64,000 nt of DNA, taken from assembly GCA_004134985.1 (NCBI GenBank), contig REGQ01000065.1, positions 1 through 64,000 of the forward strand, given 5' to 3'. The notes under the pieces were generated by a model. That model saw only the letters and a list, made by a program, of their open reading frames with translations, made no database searches and was not told where the DNA came from. Below, in pieces: positions 42,253-53,223 of the stretch. This DNA is from Paenibacillaceae bacterium (GTDB lineage: Bacteria; Bacillota; Bacilli; Paenibacillales; Paenibacillaceae). The position numbers and the translations under genes are program-made. Numbering within the stretch: position 1 is the first letter of the stretch; the number at the start of each line of letters is the position of its first letter.

Positions 42253-42549
42253 CCCGAATTCCACATACTCCCCTTGGTTTGGTCGCGGATCATGGCAACC
42301 ACTAATTTTTAGACGGAGCCAGTTTATCTCTATACACAAAGTTCCTGCAGCAGGGTAATATATTGAATTTCATTATACATTTATTTGGAAAAAAGCGGTA
42401 GTTAGTTGTATAAATTTGTGTGTTAAGGAGCTCTGGAGCTTCAGAGGTGGATATTGTTGGATCGCGCAAACTGAAAGGTCACAGATATAGTAGGGGTTAG
42501 TTCATACCAACACCAATCGCGGATTTTCAATAGTTTCATTGTTAAGATT

Positions 42550-43318
42550 GTCGCGAGCCACACATCCCGTACGGGATATGACCCCGCAAATTAAGACAAG
42601 TACGCAAAAATTCCGAAATTCCAATCCACACATCTCGCACGGGATGTGACTTTGACCAATTTGGAGATGCAATATACACAATTATTTCAATCCACACATC
42701 CCGTACGGGATGTGACGGTTCATGAAGAACACGATGGCCTCCATCCAGAAAATTCAATCCACACATCCCGTACGGGATGTGACTGGGTCGAGCCGGACGC
42801 GTTAAAAAGAAAGAAGCCATTTCAATCCACACATCCCGTACGGGATGTGACCATATCCCCCAAATTGACCTTGTGGCTATCGTTATTTCAATCCACACAT
42901 CCCGTACGGGATGTGACTGGAGGTGGCAGCGCGTCCCGGATCGCATTTGTCATTTCAATCCACACATCCCGTACGGGATGTGACAGCGGTTAAACCGTCG
43001 CTGCCGCCAGATAGTCCGATTTCAATCCACACATCCCGTACGGGATGTGACTAACACTTCGACAGGGTACGACCGATAGTTGGAAATTTCAATCCACACA
43101 TCCCGTACGGGATGTGACCCTTCCTTGTCCATCTTTTACTAAGTCTAACGAATTTCAATCCACACATCCCGTACGGGATGTGACTGGGTGGGGTGAGGCA
43201 CTGGACAGCTGGTACAACATTTCAATCCACACATCCCGTACGGGATGTGACTTTATGTTTATTTAATGTGGCATGAACTACGGTAATTTCAATCCACACA
43301 TCCCGTACGGGATGTGAC
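42550..43318 (-). CRISPR. CRISPR array, 12 repeats and 11 spacers, type I-C-like
   Basis: 33-bp repeats with a central palindrome CATCCCGTACGGGATG and, in the minus direction, the start GTCACATCCCG and end GTGGATTGAAAT typical of type I-C. Repeats end at 42582, 42650, 42716, 42783, 42851, 42917, 42984, 43051, 43118, 43184, 43251 and 43318. Spacers are 33-35 bp. The repeat at 42550-42582 is badly degenerate and the one at 42618-42650 has three changes, which marks the old distal end; the 43318 end is leader-proximal, so transcription is on the minus strand. No cas gene lies in this window. Confidence 0.97.
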
Positions 43319-43490
43319 AGCGATTTTTCGTAAAAAATGCTCGCAAATAGCTAGATCAGCGTGAGAAACTATTTCATTATCTAAATATTGTAAATAAATT
43401 AAAGATATCACTCTTTCGTTTTACATTATAAGGAATTTATTCAGTGCGAATCCCCCGGGGTTTTCATGTGCACTATACATTCGCACCAGC
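43319..43490 (-). promoter_or_regulatory. CRISPR leader with conserved-looking hairpin
   Basis: A+T-rich segment directly before the first (newest) repeat on the minus strand. At its far end GTGCGAAT (43444-43451) and ATTCGCAC (43478-43485) form an inverted repeat enclosing CATGAAAACCCCGGGG in minus orientation. I recall similar GTGCGAA...TTCGCAC hairpins in leaders next to cas2 of type I-C loci, but this is from memory. Confidence 0.65.
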
Positions 43491-43559: not shown

Positions 43560-43588
43560 AACAAAAAAGACGAGGGAACCCGCCCTCG
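43560..43588 (-). terminator. Terminator of the ABC/racemase-like operon
   Basis: On the minus strand CGAGGG-CGGGTT-CCCTCG is followed by TCTTTTTTGTTTT. Lies about 60 nt past the stop at 43650 and insulates the CRISPR leader from that operon. Confidence 0.8.
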
Positions 43589-43649
43589 CCTCGCCTCGCC
43601 TTTCCTTTTCTTTCCTTTCCTCGCCTTGCCTTGTTTGCTTACTTGCCGC

Positions 43650-44372
43650 TCAGTATTCCCTATCGAAAAGCCTTCCCCAACCCGTAACGGCTGTCGGTGA
43701 AATATCCAGCATTTTCAGGCATTGCCATACGACAACAGATATCGTGTCTAAAATTAGAATATCCAGTTCCCGCTCCAGTTCCTCCACCAAATGCGCCGCC
43801 CACAAGTTCGTCCCGAAGGTAGTAATCGCCTCAACGCCGGGAACCGCGATCTCACGCACCATCCGCTTGACTGCCGCTTCATCAATAAGCGCGCAGGCAT
43901 AGTTATCTGTCACGCCCAGACATACCGAAGCCTCGCATTGCAGGTCGAGCTTGGCATAGTTGCCGATAATGCGCTCAACGATTTGCTTCTCAGCCGGTGA
44001 GACAATCCCGAATTTCTTCACATTGTAGGCTTTGAATCGCTCATTCAGCGCCAGTACGGAGGTCGTCGCAGGTATCCCCGTTTCTTCCTTGATCTTCTCG
44101 CAGAGCCGGATATCATTTTCAAAACCGACCCAGCCGCCAGATGTTCCATTATAAGCAATGACATCTACCTTGGCATCCGCAAGCTCATAAGCTGCCTCCA
44201 GCATCGGCTCAATGGCAAATTGCGAGGCAGCCTTGGAAGTTAACGTCAGCTCAGTCACCTTGAACCGGGAAAAGTGTGCCGAAACATCAGCGATGCCATG
44301 CAACATCGCGCTGGTAACCGGCTCCAATACGGTATTCGATGAAGGGGTTAGCATGCCGATCCTTTTCTTCAT
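43650..44372 (-). CDS. Maleate isomerase/Asp-Glu racemase superfamily protein lacking both catalytic Cys
   Basis: 240-aa cytoplasmic protein. Fold signs are KRIGMLTPSSNTVLEPVTSA at the start, PATTSVLALNERFKAYNVKK near residue 105 and GIVSPAEKQIVERI near 125. Members normally use two Cys, one in a (G)CTSG loop and one in a SCTN loop. Here the loops read AYNGTSGGWVG (about residue 77) and TTFGTNLWA (about 187), so both are Gly. Arylmalonate decarboxylase lacks only the first. Racemase or isomerase chemistry is therefore unlikely in the usual form. It overlaps the ATPase gene by four bases and belongs to the ureide-region transporter operon. Confidence 0.8.
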   Translation of the reverse strand: MKKRIGMLTPSSNTVLEPVTSAMLHGIADVSAHFSRFKVTELTLTSKAASQFAIEPMLEAAYELADAKVDVIAYNGTSGGWVGFENDIRLCEKIKEETGIPATTSVLALNERFKAYNVKKFGIVSPAEKQIVERIIGNYAKLDLQCEASVCLGVTDNYACALIDEAAVKRMVREIAVPGVEAITTFGTNLWAAHLVEELERELDILILDTISVVVWQCLKMLDISPTAVTGWGRLFDREY

Positions 44373-45163
44373 GATCCTGCCTGACGCCCGGCCGACAGCT
44401 TGGCGAGCTCTCCTTCTTCTTTGAGCAGATCGAGAATCTGACGTTTGTACTGGTTGAATGCATCCGAGGTAATATCGCGCGGACGCGGCAGATCGATTGG
44501 AATCTCCTCCCGTATTTTTCCCGGTCTGCGTGTCATTACGACCACTTTCGTGCCCAAAATTAACGCTTCATCGATGCTGTGCGTAATGAAAATGATCGTA
44601 ATCTTCTGCTTCTCCCAAATTTTCACTAGCTCTTCCTGCATATCCATTTTGGTCTGTGCATCGATCGAGGCGAACGGCTCATCCATCAGAATGACCGAAG
44701 GATTCAGCATCAAGGCGCGGGCGATGCCGACCCGCTGATTCATTCCGCCCGACAGCTCGTACGGATAATGATTTTCAAAGCCCTTCAGCCCAACCATTTC
44801 AATGTATTCCTGCGCTTTCTGTTTGCGTGCCGAGGAGGACACACCGTTAATTTTCAAATGAAAGGAGACGTTCTCCCATACGGGCAGCCAAGGCATCAAT
44901 GTCGGCTGCTGGAAGACGACTCCGCGATCAACGCCCGGCGCATCAATTCGCCTGCCATTCATTTCAACAGTGCCGGAAGTTTGATTCTCGAAACCGGCAA
45001 TCATATTCATCAACGTCGATTTTCCGCACCCGCTCGGCCCGAGAATACATAGAAACTCATTTTGCTCCACCGCAAGATCAACATTGTCTACAGCAACCAG
45101 ACTTGTTTTGCGCTTCGGATCATGGAACGATTTTATAATATTTTTCATCTCGATAAGCGCCAT
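44369..45163 (-). CDS. ABC transporter ATP-binding protein (SsuB/TauB type)
   Basis: 264-aa ATPase of a nitrate/sulfonate/taurine-family importer. Walker A ILGPSGCGKSTLMNMIAG near residue 42, Q-loop GVVFQQPTLMPWLPVWENV, signature LSGGMNQRVGIARAL near 138, Walker B SVILMDEPFASIDAQTK and the H-loop IIFITHSIDEALILGTKV. It is 100 nt after the permease gene and overlaps the racemase-like gene by four bases. The purine-region context suggests that the substrate is a ureide such as allantoin, but sulfonate or pyrimidine-type substrates remain possible. Confidence 0.92.
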   Translation of the reverse strand: MALIEMKNIIKSFHDPKRKTSLVAVDNVDLAVEQNEFLCILGPSGCGKSTLMNMIAGFENQTSGTVEMNGRRIDAPGVDRGVVFQQPTLMPWLPVWENVSFHLKINGVSSSARKQKAQEYIEMVGLKGFENHYPYELSGGMNQRVGIARALMLNPSVILMDEPFASIDAQTKMDMQEELVKIWEKQKITIIFITHSIDEALILGTKVVVMTRRPGKIREEIPIDLPRPRDITSDAFNQYKRQILDLLKEEGELAKLSAGRQAGS

Positions 45164-45263: not shown

Positions 45264-46070
45264 TTATTTCATGCCTTGCACGGATGTGTTGCGCTGCCAA
45301 TGGAGCACCTTGTCCATCCATTTCTTGATCAGAAAATCCATCAGAAAGCCCATCAGACCGATGCTGGCCATACTTGCCATGACCAAATCATAGCGCAGGA
45401 AGTAATACGAATCCCACAGCACATACCCGAGGCCGCTTTTGACCGCTACCATCTCAGCGGTTACCGTCAACGCCCAGGCAATGCCGATTCCCAGACGCAA
45501 ACCGGTAAAGATCGTCGGCAGCGCCGCAGGCATTATGACATGCCGGATCAGTTTCCAGCCGTTCGCACCCATCATCGAAGCCGCGCGGATTAACGTTTTG
45601 TCCGTTGTTTTGACACCTTGAATCGTGTTCACGACGATCGGGAAGAACGAGCCAAGGAAAACAAGGAAAATTGCTGGCTTGTTCGCAATTCCGAACCAGA
45701 TGATCGCCAGTGGAATCCAGGATACCGGCGGAATGGGCCGCAGCATTTGAATCGTCGGTTCCAGCATCTTCTCCGCAATTCTGGACCAGCCGATTGCCAC
45801 CCCCAACGTAATGCCTGCCACAACGGCAATGGCAAAGCCGAGCATAACGCGCATTCCACTATTCAGCACATCTCTGATCCAAAAACCGCTGTTCACTTCC
45901 GCACTGCCGTTCGTCCCAAAGATCCAGTCCACCATGACCGCAATCACTTTGGTCGGCGCCGGGAACAGTGCTGAAGGAAACAGCCCTGACCGCGAAATGA
46001 TTTCCCATACGATAAAGACCGCAACCGGTACGATGAATCGGAATTTGTTCCGATTCCATAGATTAGTCAT
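45264..46070 (-). CDS. ABC transporter permease (SsuC/TauC type)
   Basis: 268-aa inner-membrane permease with six hydrophobic segments, starting IVPVAVFIVWEIISRSG. The EAA-like loop is KTLIRAASMMGANGWKLIRH near residue 165. The ATG at 46070 overlaps the binding-protein stop by eight bases (ATGACTAA), so translation is coupled; the frame that begins at 46127 lies within that gene. Works with the ATPase at 44369 and the binding protein at 46063. Confidence 0.92.
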   Translation of the reverse strand: MTNLWNRNKFRFIVPVAVFIVWEIISRSGLFPSALFPAPTKVIAVMVDWIFGTNGSAEVNSGFWIRDVLNSGMRVMLGFAIAVVAGITLGVAIGWSRIAEKMLEPTIQMLRPIPPVSWIPLAIIWFGIANKPAIFLVFLGSFFPIVVNTIQGVKTTDKTLIRAASMMGANGWKLIRHVIMPAALPTIFTGLRLGIGIAWALTVTAEMVAVKSGLGYVLWDSYYFLRYDLVMASMASIGLMGFLMDFLIKKWMDKVLHWQRNTSVQGMK

Positions 46071-47133
46071 TGTAACCGAGCTCTTCCTTGGTTTTTCCAG
46101 TGACTTTGGATAAGAAAGTATAGTCAATGTTGTTCCCCACCTTTTCGGATACGTCGGATTGAATATAATTGAGCTCTTTCATCATCGCTACGATCGCTAA
46201 CGCAGACTCCCGATGAATTTTATAATCCGGATATGCATTTTTCAATGCCTCCTTGCCAGTCTCTTCATCCAGCGGAGTGTATTTGTTCACAACATTGATC
46301 CATTCCTCTTTATCGGTATCCAGCTTATCCAGCAGAGCGACTACCCCGCCAACAAATGAAGTCAAATCCTCGGGACGATCCTTGATGACATCCGAACGGG
46401 TAACGATCAGATTGGTCAGCTTGCCGGCTGCCTGATTATAAGGATAAGTGAAATGCACCGCTTGTCCGCTTAATCTTGCTTGTGTAGCGATCGGCTCAAC
46501 CGTCGTGACCATTTCAACCTCGCCTTTTTCAATGGCGACAATATGATCGGCAAAGTTCGGGATGTTCACAATTTGAACGTCGGTTAATGGATCAATGCCA
46601 TTCTTTTTGAACTCACCGCGCATTTGAATATCCTGTGCGCTTCCGCGGGATGCTCCAATACGAAATGGTTTGCCGTTATTTTTGAAGTCCTGAATGATCT
46701 TTTTGAATCCTTCCCAATCATCCGTCTCCAATCCCAGACTTTTATGAGCCAACAAATCCGTACCGCCGTTCACCTGTCCCGAGATCGGCACAATATCCAG
46801 ATCCTTGCCTACTGCGGTTATATAGTGCAGATACGTAATTTGTGCGGCATCAATGCTTTTGGACACAAGCGCCGTCAATACATCATTGCCGGAAGCGAAG
46901 CTGGACAGCTCCACATTCAGATCGTCCGTCAATTCCGGCAGCAAAGTCATCGGGTAGGACATGACGCTTTTGGCGTATCCCACTTTAAGAATCGGATTTG
47001 CTTTTGGAGGCGCGGCCTTATCCCCCTCGCCTGCTGCGGCTGGCTTACTCGAATCCGTTGCATTTCCACATGCAGCCAGCAAAACCATGATTAATGCCAA
47101 CGCTGCGATTGTCCCTCGTTTTAATACTTTCAT
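46063..47133 (-). CDS. ABC substrate-binding lipoprotein (SsuA/NMT1-like)
   Basis: 356-aa lipoprotein; lipobox LLAACG puts the Cys near residue 22, followed by a Ser/Ala/Lys-rich linker. The body is an NMT1/OpuAC-like binding protein (ILKVGYAKSVMSYPMTLLPE, IDAAQITYLHYITAVGKDLD, IGASRGSAQDIQMRGEF). The ATG at 47133 follows GGGGTAGG. First gene of the four-gene transporter operon; a TGTTA-N7-TGACA dyad at 47316 lies 180 nt upstream. The family binds nitrate, sulfonates, thiamine precursors and similar small molecules. Ureide transport here is inference from context. Confidence 0.9.
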   Translation of the reverse strand: MKVLKRGTIAALALIMVLLAACGNATDSSKPAAAGEGDKAAPPKANPILKVGYAKSVMSYPMTLLPELTDDLNVELSSFASGNDVLTALVSKSIDAAQITYLHYITAVGKDLDIVPISGQVNGGTDLLAHKSLGLETDDWEGFKKIIQDFKNNGKPFRIGASRGSAQDIQMRGEFKKNGIDPLTDVQIVNIPNFADHIVAIEKGEVEMVTTVEPIATQARLSGQAVHFTYPYNQAAGKLTNLIVTRSDVIKDRPEDLTSFVGGVVALLDKLDTDKEEWINVVNKYTPLDEETGKEALKNAYPDYKIHRESALAIVAMMKELNYIQSDVSEKVGNNIDYTFLSKVTGKTKEELGYND

Positions 47134-47312
47134 TGTTGACCTACCCCTTTTCATCATGTTAGTTATAATAACATATTCGTGCTATACCTAACATTATGAA
47201 CATGATCGCGCTATTTGTCATTAGCAACATTCAACAAAATAACCTGAATCGTTTAGGCCAAACGCACAATAGTAATACTAAAATGCACCTGCACACGATT
47301 CCAACTCAGGAT

Positions 47313-47411: not shown

Positions 47412-48662
47412 CTAAACGTAAATCATGGACGATCTCGCTTCCACATAGACATCCAGCGCAGCTTGCAGCGCGCGTCCCGCATCAACCTTGGCTTTGTGTC
47501 GGATGAGAACCGCCTCCAACGCACCTAACACCGTCAACACATTTTTTTGGCTGCAGCTGTATCCCATCGTACCTATTCGCCATATTTTTCCTTTCAGGGG
47601 GCCAAAGGAAGTAGCGATTTCAACCTTGAACTCCTGCAGCAGCATACGAATGACAGCGTCCCCGTCAATCCCTTCGGGAATCTGAACACAGGTGACCACC
47701 GGCAGCTTGCATCCAGCATCGCCAAACAACTTCAACCCCATCGCCTCCAGTCCGGCGAGCAGCGCCCGCTCGTGAAGCTTGTGACGGCCAAAACGTTCCT
47801 GAAGACCTTCCTCCAGCGTAATCCGCAACCCTTCCCGCAGCGCATACAGCATGGATGTCGCTTCCGTATGATGATTTAATCTGCGGGGACCCCAATAATC
47901 CATCAATTGGCTCAAGTCAAAATAATTGCTGCGAATAATTACGCCTGAACCATTCCTGTCCACCGACGCATCGCGAATGCCCCGCTCTACATTTTTGCGC
48001 CTGTGGATCTTTTCCTCTGCCCGCTCATTGAACGTAATTGGCGCCATTCCTGCAGGAACTGACAAGCATTTCTGCGTGCCGCCGATGACAGCATCAAACA
48101 TCCATTCATCCACACGCACATCAGCCCCGCCTATCGTAGCTACAGCATCGACAACGAACAGGCTGCCAAGCTCCCGGCATGCCCGGCCAATATCCCGCAG
48201 CGGCTGCATTCGTCCGGTAGAGGTTTCACCATGAACCAGCGCAACAATATCCGGACGCTCCAGCTTCATCTTCTCAATAACTTGTTCCGGATCAAATACC
48301 TTCCCCCATTCCTGCTCCATCACCACGACGTTCGCACCGCAGCGCTCCGATATTTCCGCCAGCAGATGGCCAAATCGTCCGTATATCGGCACCAGCACCT
48401 TGTCTCCCGGCTCAATTAAACTGACCAAGACCGCTTCAATGCCAGAGCGCGACGTTCCGTCAACAGGAAAGGCCTGATGATTGGCAGTCTGGAACAACTC
48501 CCGCAGCATCGCCATCGTTTCATTCATCATCTCAGTAAATTCCGGATCAAACTGTCCCAGGATCGGGGAAGCCATCGCCCGCAGCACACGCGGATCAACC
48601 TCCACAGGTCCGGGGGTCATAATGGTGCGCGCAGTCGGCGCCAATTCTCGATACCGTCTCAT
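47412..48662 (-). CDS. pucG: Aminotransferase class V, PucG-like (ureidoglycine-glyoxylate type)
   Basis: 416-aa PLP enzyme of the alanine-glyoxylate family. PucG moves the amino group of ureidoglycine to glyoxylate, giving glycine, late in purine breakdown. Seen: TARTIMTPGPVEVDPRVLRA at the N-terminus, SRSGIEAVLVSLIEPGDKV, HGETSTGRMQPLRD, VDAVATIGGADV and the PLP-Lys in VIGGTQKCLSVPAGMAP near residue 195. ATG 48662 overlaps the amidohydrolase stop (TGATG). Its place after allantoinase and allantoate amidohydrolase favours PucG over a plain serine- or alanine-glyoxylate enzyme. Confidence 0.9.
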   Translation of the reverse strand: MRRYRELAPTARTIMTPGPVEVDPRVLRAMASPILGQFDPEFTEMMNETMAMLRELFQTANHQAFPVDGTSRSGIEAVLVSLIEPGDKVLVPIYGRFGHLLAEISERCGANVVVMEQEWGKVFDPEQVIEKMKLERPDIVALVHGETSTGRMQPLRDIGRACRELGSLFVVDAVATIGGADVRVDEWMFDAVIGGTQKCLSVPAGMAPITFNERAEEKIHRRKNVERGIRDASVDRNGSGVIIRSNYFDLSQLMDYWGPRRLNHHTEATSMLYALREGLRITLEEGLQERFGRHKLHERALLAGLEAMGLKLFGDAGCKLPVVTCVQIPEGIDGDAVIRMLLQEFKVEIATSFGPLKGKIWRIGTMGYSCSQKNVLTVLGALEAVLIRHKAKVDAGRALQAALDVYVEARSSMIYV

Positions 48663-49945
48663 CAATTTCCCTCCTTATAGCCATAAAAGTACAGCCATTC
48701 CGCCAACGCCGCCGCACCATTGGCAAGATGCAGCGGATCACTGTATTCCAGCGGCGAATGGCTGATGCCGTCTTTGCTCGGGACGAACAGCATTGTCGTC
48801 GGACAGATGGAGCTGAGCATTTGCGCATCATGCCCGGCACCGCTGAACATCGTCCGGCAGGAGAGTCCACGTGCCGCGCAAATCGAAGCCAGCGTCCCAT
48901 TCATCTCCCGATCCATGCGGACCGGCTGACTGCTCACCCACTCATCAATGTCCGCGATCAGACCTCTGCGCGCTGCGATCTCGAAGAAAGCAAGCTTCAT
49001 CCGTTCCGAGAAACGTCCCAACACATGGGCATCACTATCACGAATATCAACCTTGAAGTGCACCTCGCCGGAAATCACATTGGACATGTTCGGCACAGCT
49101 GTCAGCTGGCCAGTCGTAGCGACGAAGGGCTCCGCTTCCTGAAAAGCCGCCGTCTCAAGCCAACTGATCATTTCACAAGCGCCAGCCAGCGCGTCCCTTC
49201 GCAATCTCATAGGCGTCGTACCCGCATGGTTCGTCGCACCCTTCAACCGAACGGCAAAACGTTTTTGCCCAACAATGCCTTCCACGATGCCAACCGACTT
49301 CTGTTCCCGTTCCAGAATAATGCCCTGTTCGATGTGCAATTCAATGAACCCCGCAAGATCTTTCCGAAGCGGAGAACGGTACCGGTTCATGCCAAATCCG
49401 GCAAGATGCATCGCATCCGAAAGGGGAATATCATCGTTATCCCGCACGGATGGGACATTATTCTTATCGAAGCGTCCGGTGATGTTGCCCGATCCCCAAT
49501 AAGTGAGCGGAAACCGGCTGCCCTCTTCTTCACACAGCGAGACGACCTCGATCGTCCTTGCCGGAGGGCCGAACCGCTTGCGCAAATATTGTAAAGCGAT
49601 CACCCCGGCCAAAATGCCGTAAGCACCGTCATACTTACCGCCGCAGACTACCGTATCGAGATGAGAACCCGTCAGCAGTGTGCCTCGCTGCGAACCGTCC
49701 CCTTCCAGTCTGCCGAACAAATTGCCGCAATCATCATAGTACGTTTGAAGTCCGGCCGCTCCCATCCTTCCGGCGAGCGCTTGCTGCGCGGCAACCCACG
49801 CATCGCTGTACAGCAGCCGTGTAACGCCTCCCTGATCATCCTTGCCATATGACGCCAACCATTCAACCGCTTGTTCAATCTCTTCAGCAAACTGCAGGCG
49901 ATCCTCCTCTGACACTTGCAGTTCGTTTGTATATTCACCCGCCAT
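48662..49945 (-). CDS. allC: Allantoate amidohydrolase (M20 family Zn hydrolase)
   Basis: 427-aa metal enzyme that hydrolyses allantoate to ureidoglycine, CO2 and ammonia. Metal ligands: His and Asp in TGSHLDTVVCGGKYDGAYGI near residue 95, Glu in SLCEEEGSRFPLTYWGSG near 140, His in IELHIEQGIILERE near 205 and His in SGAGHDAQMLSSI near 390. The dimerisation insert GATNHAGTTPMRLRRDAL is also typical. Hydantoinase-type carbamoylases are close relatives, but the allantoinase before it and PucG after it fix the pathway. AGGGTG-type site before the ATG. B. subtilis names it pucF. Confidence 0.9.
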   Translation of the reverse strand: MAGEYTNELQVSEEDRLQFAEEIEQAVEWLASYGKDDQGGVTRLLYSDAWVAAQQALAGRMGAAGLQTYYDDCGNLFGRLEGDGSQRGTLLTGSHLDTVVCGGKYDGAYGILAGVIALQYLRKRFGPPARTIEVVSLCEEEGSRFPLTYWGSGNITGRFDKNNVPSVRDNDDIPLSDAMHLAGFGMNRYRSPLRKDLAGFIELHIEQGIILEREQKSVGIVEGIVGQKRFAVRLKGATNHAGTTPMRLRRDALAGACEMISWLETAAFQEAEPFVATTGQLTAVPNMSNVISGEVHFKVDIRDSDAHVLGRFSERMKLAFFEIAARRGLIADIDEWVSSQPVRMDREMNGTLASICAARGLSCRTMFSGAGHDAQMLSSICPTTMLFVPSKDGISHSPLEYSDPLHLANGAAALAEWLYFYGYKEGN

Positions 49946-49987
49946 CGTGAAGCACCCTTTCGCAAAATGACCTTTCCCGAACCTTTC

Positions 49988-51358
49988 TTAACAACCAGGC
50001 AGGATGAATCGACCGCTTTGTCCGTTCAGGATTCCCTTCTCCCAATCGTAAACCATTTGCCCCCGCACCAGTGTTTGTCTGATTCGGCAATGCATCATTT
50101 GGCCTGCATACGGATTTTGCTTGTGGCGATCCAGCAAGTGCTCCTTGCGCAGCTCATAAGGCGAAGCAAAATCAATCAGCACCACGTCCGCATCTTTGCC
50201 CGGCGCAATCTCTCCTTTACGGGATGCCATGCCAAATCGCTGAGCCGGGTTCGCAGCAAGCATCCGGCATAGCAGGGGAAGCGGCAGCTTCCGAACCGCG
50301 CTGCCTTCCCCAAGAAACAGTTCCACCGAGCTTTGTGCGCCTGATATGCCTCCCCAAATTTCAAACCAGTTCTCCGAAACTTTAAGTTCCGGAGGACAGG
50401 GCGAATGATCTGAACTGATGATGTCAACTTCCCCCCTGGCGATGGCCTGCCACATCTCTTCCACGAGTTCAACGGTGCGAAGCGGCGGTGCACACTTGGC
50501 CAACGCCCCAATTTCATGCATAGCTTCACTTGTCAGCACCAGATAATGAGGGCAGGTTTCCAGCGTAACATCCATCCCACTCCGCTTGGCCTTGACGATC
50601 TCCATGACAGCCTCCGGACTGCTGATATGGACAAAATGCAAGGCGCAGCCTGTCAGTTCCGCATAGAACAAGGCACGCCGCACTGCTTCAACCTCTGCGT
50701 ACACCGGTCTTGATGCCGCATAATCCGCCGCAGAAGTCCGGCCGCCGCTAAGCTGTGCTCTGGTCAAAGCAGCGATAAGCGGCTCGCTTTCTGCATGGAG
50801 AGCAAGGATTCGGCCGAGCTCGGCAATCCGCTTCATCCCTTCATAGAGTGTCGCATCATCGGATTCGCGGAATGCCCCCGGCTGCTTCCCTCCCGCCGCT
50901 GACATGAAGGCTTTATATCCAATCACCCCGGCTTCGCTGAGCGGAGCAAGCTGTTCGAGATTGCCTGGCACAAGACCGCCCCAGAACGCGTAATCAACGG
51001 CGGATCGCCCCGTTGCAAGCCTGCGCTTCTCTTCCAGCGCAGCAATGCTGATCGTTGGCGGGAGCCCGTTAAGCGGCATATCGAAATAAGTTGTGCAACC
51101 TCCGGCAGCCAGAGCGCTGGAGCCACTAGGAATCCCTTCCCACTCCGCTAGCCCAGGCTCATTCAAATGCACATGGATATCGATCATGCCTGGGGCTACG
51201 AATAAGCCATCCGCATCAATTACGTTGCCATTATGATGCTCAATATGAGGCTCCATTGAATGAATGACGCCATCGACAATTTTAATATCCAAATGCTCAA
51301 CCCGATCTTGTAAAACAACCTGTCCGCCTTTGATCACAACTTCATCGAAAATCCTCAT
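49988..51358 (-). CDS. allB: Allantoinase
   Basis: 456-aa cyclic amidohydrolase that opens allantoin to allantoate. All metal ligands are visible: HxH in IDIHVHLNEPGLAEWEG near residue 62, the carboxylated Lys in VIGYKAFMSAAGG near 150, His in LALHAESEPL near 190, His in LHFVHISSPEAV near 245 and Asp in ISSDHSPCPPEL near 320. ATG 51358 is chosen, just after a TTG; GGGGGTG is upstream. First gene of the allB-allC-pucG operon, divergent from pucR, with TGTTA-N7-TAACA at 51382 just before the start. Confidence 0.93.
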   Translation of the reverse strand: MRIFDEVVIKGGQVVLQDRVEHLDIKIVDGVIHSMEPHIEHHNGNVIDADGLFVAPGMIDIHVHLNEPGLAEWEGIPSGSSALAAGGCTTYFDMPLNGLPPTISIAALEEKRRLATGRSAVDYAFWGGLVPGNLEQLAPLSEAGVIGYKAFMSAAGGKQPGAFRESDDATLYEGMKRIAELGRILALHAESEPLIAALTRAQLSGGRTSAADYAASRPVYAEVEAVRRALFYAELTGCALHFVHISSPEAVMEIVKAKRSGMDVTLETCPHYLVLTSEAMHEIGALAKCAPPLRTVELVEEMWQAIARGEVDIISSDHSPCPPELKVSENWFEIWGGISGAQSSVELFLGEGSAVRKLPLPLLCRMLAANPAQRFGMASRKGEIAPGKDADVVLIDFASPYELRKEHLLDRHKQNPYAGQMMHCRIRQTLVRGQMVYDWEKGILNGQSGRFILPGC

Positions 51359-51381
51359 CAAGCACCCCCACTCTATCTTAT

Positions 51382-51559: not shown

Positions 51560-51582
51560 AATGAAGTAGGGGTGAGATGGAA

Positions 51583-53223
51583 ATGAAACTACAGGATTTA
51601 TTTCAACTTCCCATATATCAAAATGCCCGTGTGATAGCCGGGCGCAGCGGACTGAACCGCCTCGTCAAATCGGTGAACATGATGGATGCGCCGGATATTG
51701 CCGATTATTTAAAAGCCGATGTGCTGCTCTTGACAACCGGTTATGCAATTCGCGATCATCCGGATGAACTGTACAGGCTTGTACAGCATATGACCCAATC
51801 GGGCTGCGCAGGATTAGGAATTAAGACCAAGCGCTTCCTGAACGAGATTCCCCAGCAGGTGCTTGACCTGGCTGATGCGAATCACTTCCCCGTTATTGAG
51901 CTTTCACTCGACTACTCGCTGGGCGAATTGCTGCATGAATCATTGAGCTATATGGTAGAAAGACATAACGAACATCTCCGTTACGCCTTGAAAACGCATC
52001 GCGACTTTTCCCAAATGGTCATTCAGGGACAAAATATCGCTTCCATCATCAATGCATTATCTCCACTGGTCGGAGGCACCGTTCTGCTAATTGACGGCCG
52101 CTTGCAGACGATCGCCAGCTCAGGCGCAATCGCCCCATTGCTGGAAGTCCAACTGCAGCGGGTCGCACAGCATCTGCTGACACTGAAAGGAGAGTACAGC
52201 TCCCCATTTATCCGGTTATGTCCGTTATCCGGCGACCCGTCGCACTATGCGGAGGCATTATTTTATCGCATTGGACTGCCCCAACAAACCTGCTTTCTCA
52301 TTGTCGTTGCCGCACAGCTTGATGATGACGCCTCACTTCCCAAGCTCGCTTTGGAGCAGGCGGCGAATGTCATTGGGTTCGAATTGATGAAGCAACAGGC
52401 AGTCAAGGAAAAGTCACGCCGCTACAAAAATGAATTTTGCGAGGATTTGGTGGAAGGACGTTTTCACTCTGCCGCTGAAATGATTCACCAAGGGAAACGG
52501 TACGGACTTCAGGAACCCTATCCTTGCCTTGGCATCGTGTGCAAAGTCGACGACGCGGCCGACACAGCCGGTGACCATGTATACAGCAAGCGAGATCATA
52601 TCTATGGCCATATCAAAAGGATGCTGGTTCAATTCCAGCAGCCCTACATCCTCTTTAATAAAAAAGATCTGTTCGTTATTTTGCTCAAATGGGAACAGAA
52701 CCTGCCGATGCAGGAATACCAGCTTTCAGAGCGGCTGCTTCAATTCCAGGAAAAGCTTTATCAAGCGGACCGGATTTCCATGTCGTTTGGCATCGGCAAC
52801 CCGGTTGAGCATTTAACCCTCATTCCCAATACGTATAACGAGGCGCTGGGTGCGCTTACGATGGGATATAAATCACGCCAAACCCGATTTATCCAATCCT
52901 ACCGCGCCAAAGAAGCTGTCGAACTACTGAAGATGATCCCCCGGGAAGCGCTGCAAGACTTCTATGAGGAATCGTTCCATCTGTTGGCTGATCTGGAGAC
53001 ACGGGAGCGAGAAGAGCTGATGAATACCGTACTTGTCTACTTGGAAACCCATGGGCAAATTGCCGAGACATCCAAGCGGCTGTTCGTCCACCGGAATACA
53101 GTCGCCTATCGGATCAACAAATTTGAACAACTCACCCATCGCAACCTTCGCGATGCCAACGATTCCATGCGCTTCCGACTCGCCTTCCTGACCGATAAAA
53201 TATTGCGGGATATCCCGCAGTAG
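51583..53223 (+). CDS. pucR: PucR family transcriptional regulator
   Basis: 546-aa regulator of purine degradation. The N-terminal PucR domain covers about residues 1-125 (MKLQDLFQLPIYQNARVIAG, LKADVLLLTTGYAIRDHPDE), a GAF-like/GGDEF-like middle follows, and the C-terminal helix-turn-helix is in HGQIAETSKRLFVHRNTVAY near 495. ATG 51583 is chosen because AGGGGTGAG ends 6 nt before it; ATG 51577 is directly adjacent. In B. subtilis PucR responds to ureides and switches on the puc genes. Here it is divergent from allB and likely binds the TGTTA-N7-TAACA dyads. Confidence 0.93.
   Translation: MKLQDLFQLPIYQNARVIAGRSGLNRLVKSVNMMDAPDIADYLKADVLLLTTGYAIRDHPDELYRLVQHMTQSGCAGLGIKTKRFLNEIPQQVLDLADANHFPVIELSLDYSLGELLHESLSYMVERHNEHLRYALKTHRDFSQMVIQGQNIASIINALSPLVGGTVLLIDGRLQTIASSGAIAPLLEVQLQRVAQHLLTLKGEYSSPFIRLCPLSGDPSHYAEALFYRIGLPQQTCFLIVVAAQLDDDASLPKLALEQAANVIGFELMKQQAVKEKSRRYKNEFCEDLVEGRFHSAAEMIHQGKRYGLQEPYPCLGIVCKVDDAADTAGDHVYSKRDHIYGHIKRMLVQFQQPYILFNKKDLFVILLKWEQNLPMQEYQLSERLLQFQEKLYQADRISMSFGIGNPVEHLTLIPNTYNEALGALTMGYKSRQTRFIQSYRAKEAVELLKMIPREALQDFYEESFHLLADLETREREELMNTVLVYLETHGQIAETSKRLFVHRNTVAYRINKFEQLTHRNLRDANDSMRFRLAFLTDKILRDIPQ

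Follow-up and report, generated by a model that had tools for sequence, protein, structure and literature searches.

Enzymes of this superfamily are usually recognised by one or two fixed cysteines that transfer protons, and this feature has served as a handle for the engineering of arylmalonate decarboxylase (AMDase). What can a protein of the same fold do when it has neither cysteine? The question is raised by an ORF in a 64,000-nucleotide stretch of DNA from a Paenibacillaceae bacterium (contig REGQ01000065.1; the whole stretch is called the window below), whose two catalytic loops read AYNGTSGG and TTFGTNLW. The ORF and the codons discussed here are listed below, where 'one-Cys' denotes relatives with a single catalytic Cys and 'Cys-less' denotes proteins with none at either site.

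43650..44372, minus strand: AMDase-like ORF, 240 aa, Cys absent from both catalytic loops
44145..44147, minus strand: G76 codon, GGA, aligned with AMDase Gly74 (Cys in racemases)
43812..43814, minus strand: G187 codon, GGG, counterpart of AMDase Cys188 (Cys in 36 of 36 one-Cys relatives)
44151..44153, minus strand: Y74 codon (Tyr in 8 of 8 Cys-less, Trp in 36 of 36 one-Cys proteins)
43992..43994, minus strand: A127 codon, counterpart of AMDase Tyr126 in the dioxyanion hole (Tyr in 36 of 36 one-Cys; Ala, Ser or Leu in 7 of 8 Cys-less proteins)
43893..43895, minus strand: C160 codon, aligned with AMDase Met159 of the small hydrophobic pocket; candidate relocated thiol

We found that the protein, the sole family member in its genome (search at E 0.001), matched the Pfam Amdase family PF17645 at 43.5 bits, above the gathering cut-off of 25.9. 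It scored below the thresholds of PF01177 (Asp/Glu/hydantoin racemase; 29.1 bits, gathering score 31) and of the NCBIfam AMDase enzyme family NF052327 (46.8 bits, cut-off 225). With EutA (TIGR02990) it had a family resemblance at 63.5 bits, far under the cut-off of 318, and no ectoine genes were seen among the annotated window neighbours. An AlphaFold2 model, for which the window protein and one Nocardia relative served as input, had a mean pLDDT of 77.7 and a pTM of 0.80; pLDDT was below 50 in region 41-52 and at residues 155-159, and the block 151-160, with a mean of 51, was the worst part of the model. The best structural matches of the model were maleate cis-trans isomerases (2xed, 4fq5; Z 26-27, about 23% identity to the window protein), followed by AMDases (Z 25-26), with allantoin/hydantoin racemases (3qvj, 5lg5, 2eq5) in the same superfamily fold and clearly more distant (Z about 17). 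The match to 4fq5_A (Z 27.0, rmsd 2.2, 232 aligned residues) places the model within the maleate isomerase fold. Maleate isomerase has two Cys at the catalytic positions, and the matched structure entries include C194S and C200A mutants, consistent with two catalytic Cys; allantoin/hydantoin racemase likewise needs two. The cysteine pair of Asp/Glu and hydantoin racemases and of maleate isomerase is absent from the window protein, which has G76 and G187 in its place. The protein thus belongs to the AMDase/maleate isomerase branch and not to the hydantoin-racemase branch, and its Cys content, together with the ranking of the structural matches, led us to reject a hydantoin or allantoin racemase identity. 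The initial annotation had called the fold well kept, which the structural matches (Z 25-27) bear out. It had also measured the protein against the two-Cys racemase motif, a comparison that does not suit a member of the AMDase branch (43.5 bits; Z 25-27 versus about 17) with one-Cys relatives. Such genes should not be annotated as racemases.

The resemblance to AMDase (EC 4.1.1.76; PF17645) extends from the fold (Z 25-26) to the Gly at the first Cys position, the Thr-Ser pair of the dioxyanion hole and, according to PMC4996985, a transporter-rich gene neighbourhood. Table 4 of that source lists Gly74, Cys188, Thr75-Ser76, Tyr126, Gly189 and a pocket including Met159. The hydrophobic pocket of AMDase also contains Leu40, Val43 and Tyr48, whose alignment with the low-confidence region 41-52 of the model is unreliable. 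Mapped onto this table by alignment, the window counterparts are G76, G187, T77-S78, A127, T188 and C160. Gly74 and Thr75-Ser76 are therefore kept as G76, T77 and S78, whereas the proton donor Cys188 is replaced by G187, Tyr126 by A127, Gly189 by T188 and Met159 by C160. Codon 187 (GGG) is two bases away from either Cys codon, so a single sequencing error does not explain the Gly, and the identical double Gly occurs in an independent genome, in the protein L084 (68% identity), a true ortholog from another bacterial family. These results uphold the claim of Gly at both catalytic positions. The further idea that two Cys had been lost needs revision, since the first loop has Gly in all 36 sampled CTN relatives, as in AMDase; neither loop has a Cys, but relative to its own subfamily the protein has lost one and not two. 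Whether another Cys occupies the active site had also been raised: no Cys fills either loop, but C160, kept in L084, aligns with Met159.

To compare the two kinds of protein we aligned 53 distinct sequences. They are segments as aligned by tblastn and not full ORFs, and we excluded those shorter than 180 aa as well as repeats of one locus. The one-Cys type accounts for 36 of them, with GTS, GTA or GAS in the first loop and CTN in the second. Eight lack Cys at both sites: the window protein; L084; the Ala/Gly set of L083, L009, L045, L046 and L047; and L048. The others are eight distant sequences and L070, which lacks Cys in another way and was kept out of the eight because its loops are quite different. 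This L070 gene (8001-8708, Ensifer adhaerens plasmid) has ALVAPGG in loop 1 and NTN in loop 2 and adjoins a tripartite tricarboxylate transporter gene set, and thus represents another kind of Cys loss. The one-Cys group is itself unnamed (GTS...CTN, beside hydantoinase/dihydropyrimidinase genes). It shares 37-56% identity and the same conserved frame with the window protein, and includes Cupriavidus L016, Leptolyngbya L015 and L020 of a Klebsiella plasmid; L020, L071 and L073 have the same ABC transporter as the window. In a Nocardia genome (G473), the frames of two one-Cys members (L002, 9998-11149; L053, 3916-5088) extend about 130-150 aa beyond the AMDase-like domain, and the extra part of L002 gives the impression of a regulatory sensor domain.

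All 36 one-Cys proteins have Cys187, Trp74 and Tyr127, unlike the Cys-less proteins, where position 74 is Tyr in all eight and position 127 is Tyr in one and Ala, Ser or Leu in seven. Position 160 is Phe in 35 one-Cys proteins and Ile in one, versus Cys in two, Ser in five and Leu in one of the Cys-less proteins; C160 is found in the window protein and L084 and in none of the 36. Only 6 of 240 positions (Y74, C160, K169, G187, W191 and L206) are specific to the window protein and L084 relative to the 36, and the mapping to Table 4 of PMC4996985 puts three of these, 74, 160 and 187, within or next to active-site elements of AMDase. Twenty positions are invariant in the eight Cys-less proteins and in at least 35 of the 36 one-Cys proteins, including P10, S11, S12, N13, T14, T77, N157, T188, N189 and D209. 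By analogy with AMDase, PSSNT, T77, N157, T188-N189 and D209 are probably anion-binding. No new polar catalytic residue common to all eight Cys-less proteins was seen among the aligned positions. Within this alignment, then, loss of the Cys is accompanied by coordinated replacements in the active site. We found no description of Cys-less superfamily members in the open-licence PMC literature.

The initial annotation had proposed a phylogeny to find a double-Gly clade. Cys-less relatives do exist, but of the proteins sampled only two, from the window genome and G1267, have the strict double Gly, and the larger Ala/Gly set seems, from the trees, to have arisen separately. A first tree was built without positions 74, 76, 127, 160 and 187 and excluded six distant rows (L014, L043, L087, L044, L040 and L086); a second also excluded the rows L056, L059, L048 and L070. 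In the first tree the window protein and L084 fell among one-Cys proteins of proteobacteria and cyanobacteria, the Ala/Gly set formed another group and L048 a long separate branch. A single clade of all Cys-less proteins is disfavoured: the best tree splits them, and AU tests gave p = 0.0853 for all eight, p = 0.0047 when the long row L048 was left out of them, and p = 0.0357 for the seven after removal of four long or odd rows, with groups named after the data had been seen and long branches in the tree. Two or more origins are thus likely, with moderate support from the phylogeny. A sign test for linked changes had one independent pair on the starred branches and three in all, too few for significance. 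Such proteins are rare: of 394 genomes in the bacterial family of the window, 18 had a member (E 1e-15, own included), as did 4 of 104 genomes in a second family (E 1e-20); relatives of the protein were not found in viral contigs.

The AMDase-like gene lies at the end of a minus-strand run that begins with purine genes and continues through an ABC transporter (order pucH, pucF, pucG, SBP, permease, ATPase, AMDase-like). The transporter genes and the sequence beyond the run are as follows.

46063..47157, minus strand: ABC substrate-binding protein (SBP), NMT1/SsuA type, PF13379 (73% identity in L084)
45264..46127, minus strand: ABC transporter permease, PF00528 (79% identity in L084)
44369..45163, minus strand: ABC transporter ATPase, Ssu/Tau/nitrate type, PF00005 (83% identity in L084)
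43567..43592, minus strand: terminator-like hairpin 3' of the AMDase-like gene, from a pattern scan only, with matches in the region no more numerous than in shuffles

Directly downstream of the AMDase-like gene we also observed a CRISPR array (42547-43325) of 12 near-identical repeats with the core ATTTCAATCCACACATCCCGTACGGGATGTGAC and a spacing of 66-68 bp.

The start codon of the AMDase-like gene overlaps the end of the ATPase gene by 4 bp, so the coupling to a transporter noted at the outset holds. The same partnership was found elsewhere. The L084 locus reads GntR, SBP (73%), permease (79%), ATPase (83%) and AMDase-like gene (68%). In plasmids, where 197 records matched and 18 loci were examined, SBP coverage reached at least 80% in 12 of 50 SBP-matching records (49-56% identity), and in all 12 the AMDase-like gene lay 1,969-3,537 bp from the SBP gene; these records are not independent, because 8 of the 12 are from Azospirillum. 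At E 1e-60 the SBP was present in 2 of 197 relatives, the own genome and G166, where it lies about 9.5 kb from the AMDase-like gene. Given this linkage in L084, plasmids and G166, the conserved partner of the AMDase-like gene is the ABC transporter and not the purine genes. A sequence search found no solved relative of the SBP.

The purine genes that adjoin the transporter in the window are these.

47412..48665, minus strand: PucG-like class V aminotransferase, upstream neighbour, PF00266 (64-72% identity to relatives' puc-cluster genes)
48662..49945, minus strand: allantoate amidohydrolase-like (PucF), NCBIfam NF006768/TIGR01879
49988..51361, minus strand: allantoinase (PucH), TIGR03178, 552.8 bits versus a cut-off of 357.85
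51577..53223, plus strand: PucR-like regulator ORF, divergent, its name given by similarity to puc loci (the regulator adjoining pucF in L103/L105 is 35% identical)

The proposed co-occurrence with purine genes did not survive comparison with the double-Gly ortholog L084, which stands beside the same ABC transporter: no puc genes were seen at its locus, and the pucG of its genome lies on another contig, within a separate purine cluster (L102). Of the two orthologs only that in the window is linked to a puc operon, and purine-pathway membership by linkage was rejected, as the linkage is not conserved at L084. OHCU decarboxylase (PF09349) was not found in the window genome (G000), despite its allantoin-degrading genes (47412-51361), and is present in G088 and G1267. 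Since PF09349 occurs in two of the four Cys-less genomes searched, there is no complementary pattern, and a role as stand-in for this decarboxylase was rejected.

In the wider family, amidohydrolases are frequent neighbours. One-Cys genes lie near hydantoinase, dihydropyrimidinase or allantoinase-type amidohydrolases in 30 of the 34 loci with context (L016 and L032 of the 36 gave none), and Cys-less genes lie near allantoinase/hydantoinase-type enzymes in 7 of 8 cases, with neighbour labels taken from best BLAST matches, some as low as 23% identity; the L084 locus has no such neighbours. These amidohydrolase neighbours suggest N-heterocycle or ureide-type substrates for the family. Some one-Cys clusters in the Paenibacillus order also hold a Rieske oxygenase, an alpha/beta hydrolase and a protein with three RidA-type stretches, a combination reminiscent of uracil breakdown. 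Within the order to which the window belongs, loci such as L011 and L085 unite all of these with amidohydrolases and the one-Cys AMDase-like gene, and may represent an undescribed ring-degradation pathway.

AMDase holds one carboxylate of its substrate in the dioxyanion hole and expels the other in the hydrophobic pocket, and Cys188 protonates the enediolate; the enzyme normally has Gly at the first catalytic site and draws its proton from Cys188 alone. With the Cys on the other face (G74C/C188S), activity dropped 20,000-fold before pocket repair (PMC12576825), so that a Cys-free site should, on this account, be very poor at AMDase chemistry. Because the window protein has neither this donor nor the dioxyanion-hole Tyr, it may carry out other chemistry on an imported acid, possibly via C160, or binding only. 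With a confidence slightly short of even, we propose that it is a cofactor-free enzyme acting on an imported nitrogen-containing carboxylate by chemistry that does without the Cys188 proton. On this reading it is an intact soluble protein descended from one-Cys (AMDase-type) ancestors. The proton donor Cys188, Tyr126 of the dioxyanion hole and the small-pocket Phe have gone, while the putative anion-binding loops (PSSNT, T77-S78, T188-N189, N157 and D209) are kept. The ABC transporter of the same unit would import a carboxylate-bearing, nitrogen-containing compound as substrate, perhaps ureide-like in view of the hydantoinase/allantoinase neighbours, and the reaction may be a decarboxylation, a tautomerisation or a lyase/hydrolytic step independent of the Cys188 proton.

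The kept pocket and the purifying selection fit a putative ligand-binding pseudoenzyme equally well. Such a catalytically dead protein would bind the imported acid as a chaperone, buffer or regulator of the transporter or pathway. We regard this as possible, if rather unlikely: the Cys188 and Tyr126 equivalents are gone while the anion loops stay, the gene is translationally coupled to the ATPase, and in the L084 unit it is, regulators aside, the one gene for a soluble protein that accompanies the ABC genes. However, the amidohydrolase neighbours of seven of the eight Cys-less genes, as in the one-Cys group, look more like a pathway step, and position 160 is potentially reactive (Cys or Ser) in seven of eight. 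That residue might instead do the work: in the double-Gly pair C160 would transfer the proton or act as nucleophile, and in the Ala/Gly group Ser160 would have a related task. Both double-Gly orthologs have C160, which none of the 36 one-Cys proteins shares, Ser160 is present in five of the six other Cys-less proteins, and C160 aligns with the hydrophobic-pocket residue Met159 (Table 4 of PMC4996985). The idea is nonetheless unlikely, as the alignment at 160 lies beside a loop that the model renders with low confidence, Leu stands there in the third type, L048, Ser is a poor acid/base substitute for Cys and C160 is carried by two sequences only. Its fuller version, in which the double-Gly proteins would be active enzymes with the thiol moved from Cys188 to 160, and in which Cys188 loss, Trp74 to Tyr, loss of Tyr126 and Phe160 to Cys or Ser would have been concerted more than once, appears marginally less probable again; if true, it would be a catalytic geometry that we have not found described for the Asp/Glu racemase fold.

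An ordinary racemase or decarboxylase of the allantoin/hydantoin pathway that belongs with the adjoining puc genes, such as one replacing OHCU decarboxylase or allantoin racemase, seems very improbable. Directly upstream are pucH, pucF and pucG, the window genome has no PF09349 match, and L103 and L105 have permease-like genes after pucG where the window has ABC genes. But the protein has no Cys for racemisation, the L084 locus has no puc genes, and the distribution of PF09349 is not complementary. A decaying gene or sequencing artefact, already disfavoured, is scarcely credible. The loss of a catalytic residue and an assembly contamination estimate of 4.9% would speak for it, but the ORF is full-length, the codon change involves two bases, the same state recurs in an independent genome, and pN lies well under pS between the window gene and L084 (pS 0.74, pN 0.188), indicating purifying selection. 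The L009/L045 pair is likewise mostly synonymous (pS 0.655, pN 0.110). Because divergence from L084 is mostly synonymous, the substitution pattern indicates that the AMDase-like protein is a working protein with an altered active site, and not a product of decay.

Collectively, these proteins form a small variant within the AMDase branch that lacks the Cys, is tied to one type of transporter and has apparently arisen repeatedly. They provide a natural, selected and probably repeated Cys-less group, so that the comparison of 8 with 36 proteins may reveal what else the fold can do, and the role of the catalytic Cys in the fold becomes directly testable by comparing Cys-less and one-Cys proteins. 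The tight link to one type of ABC transporter offers a practical route to the substrate.
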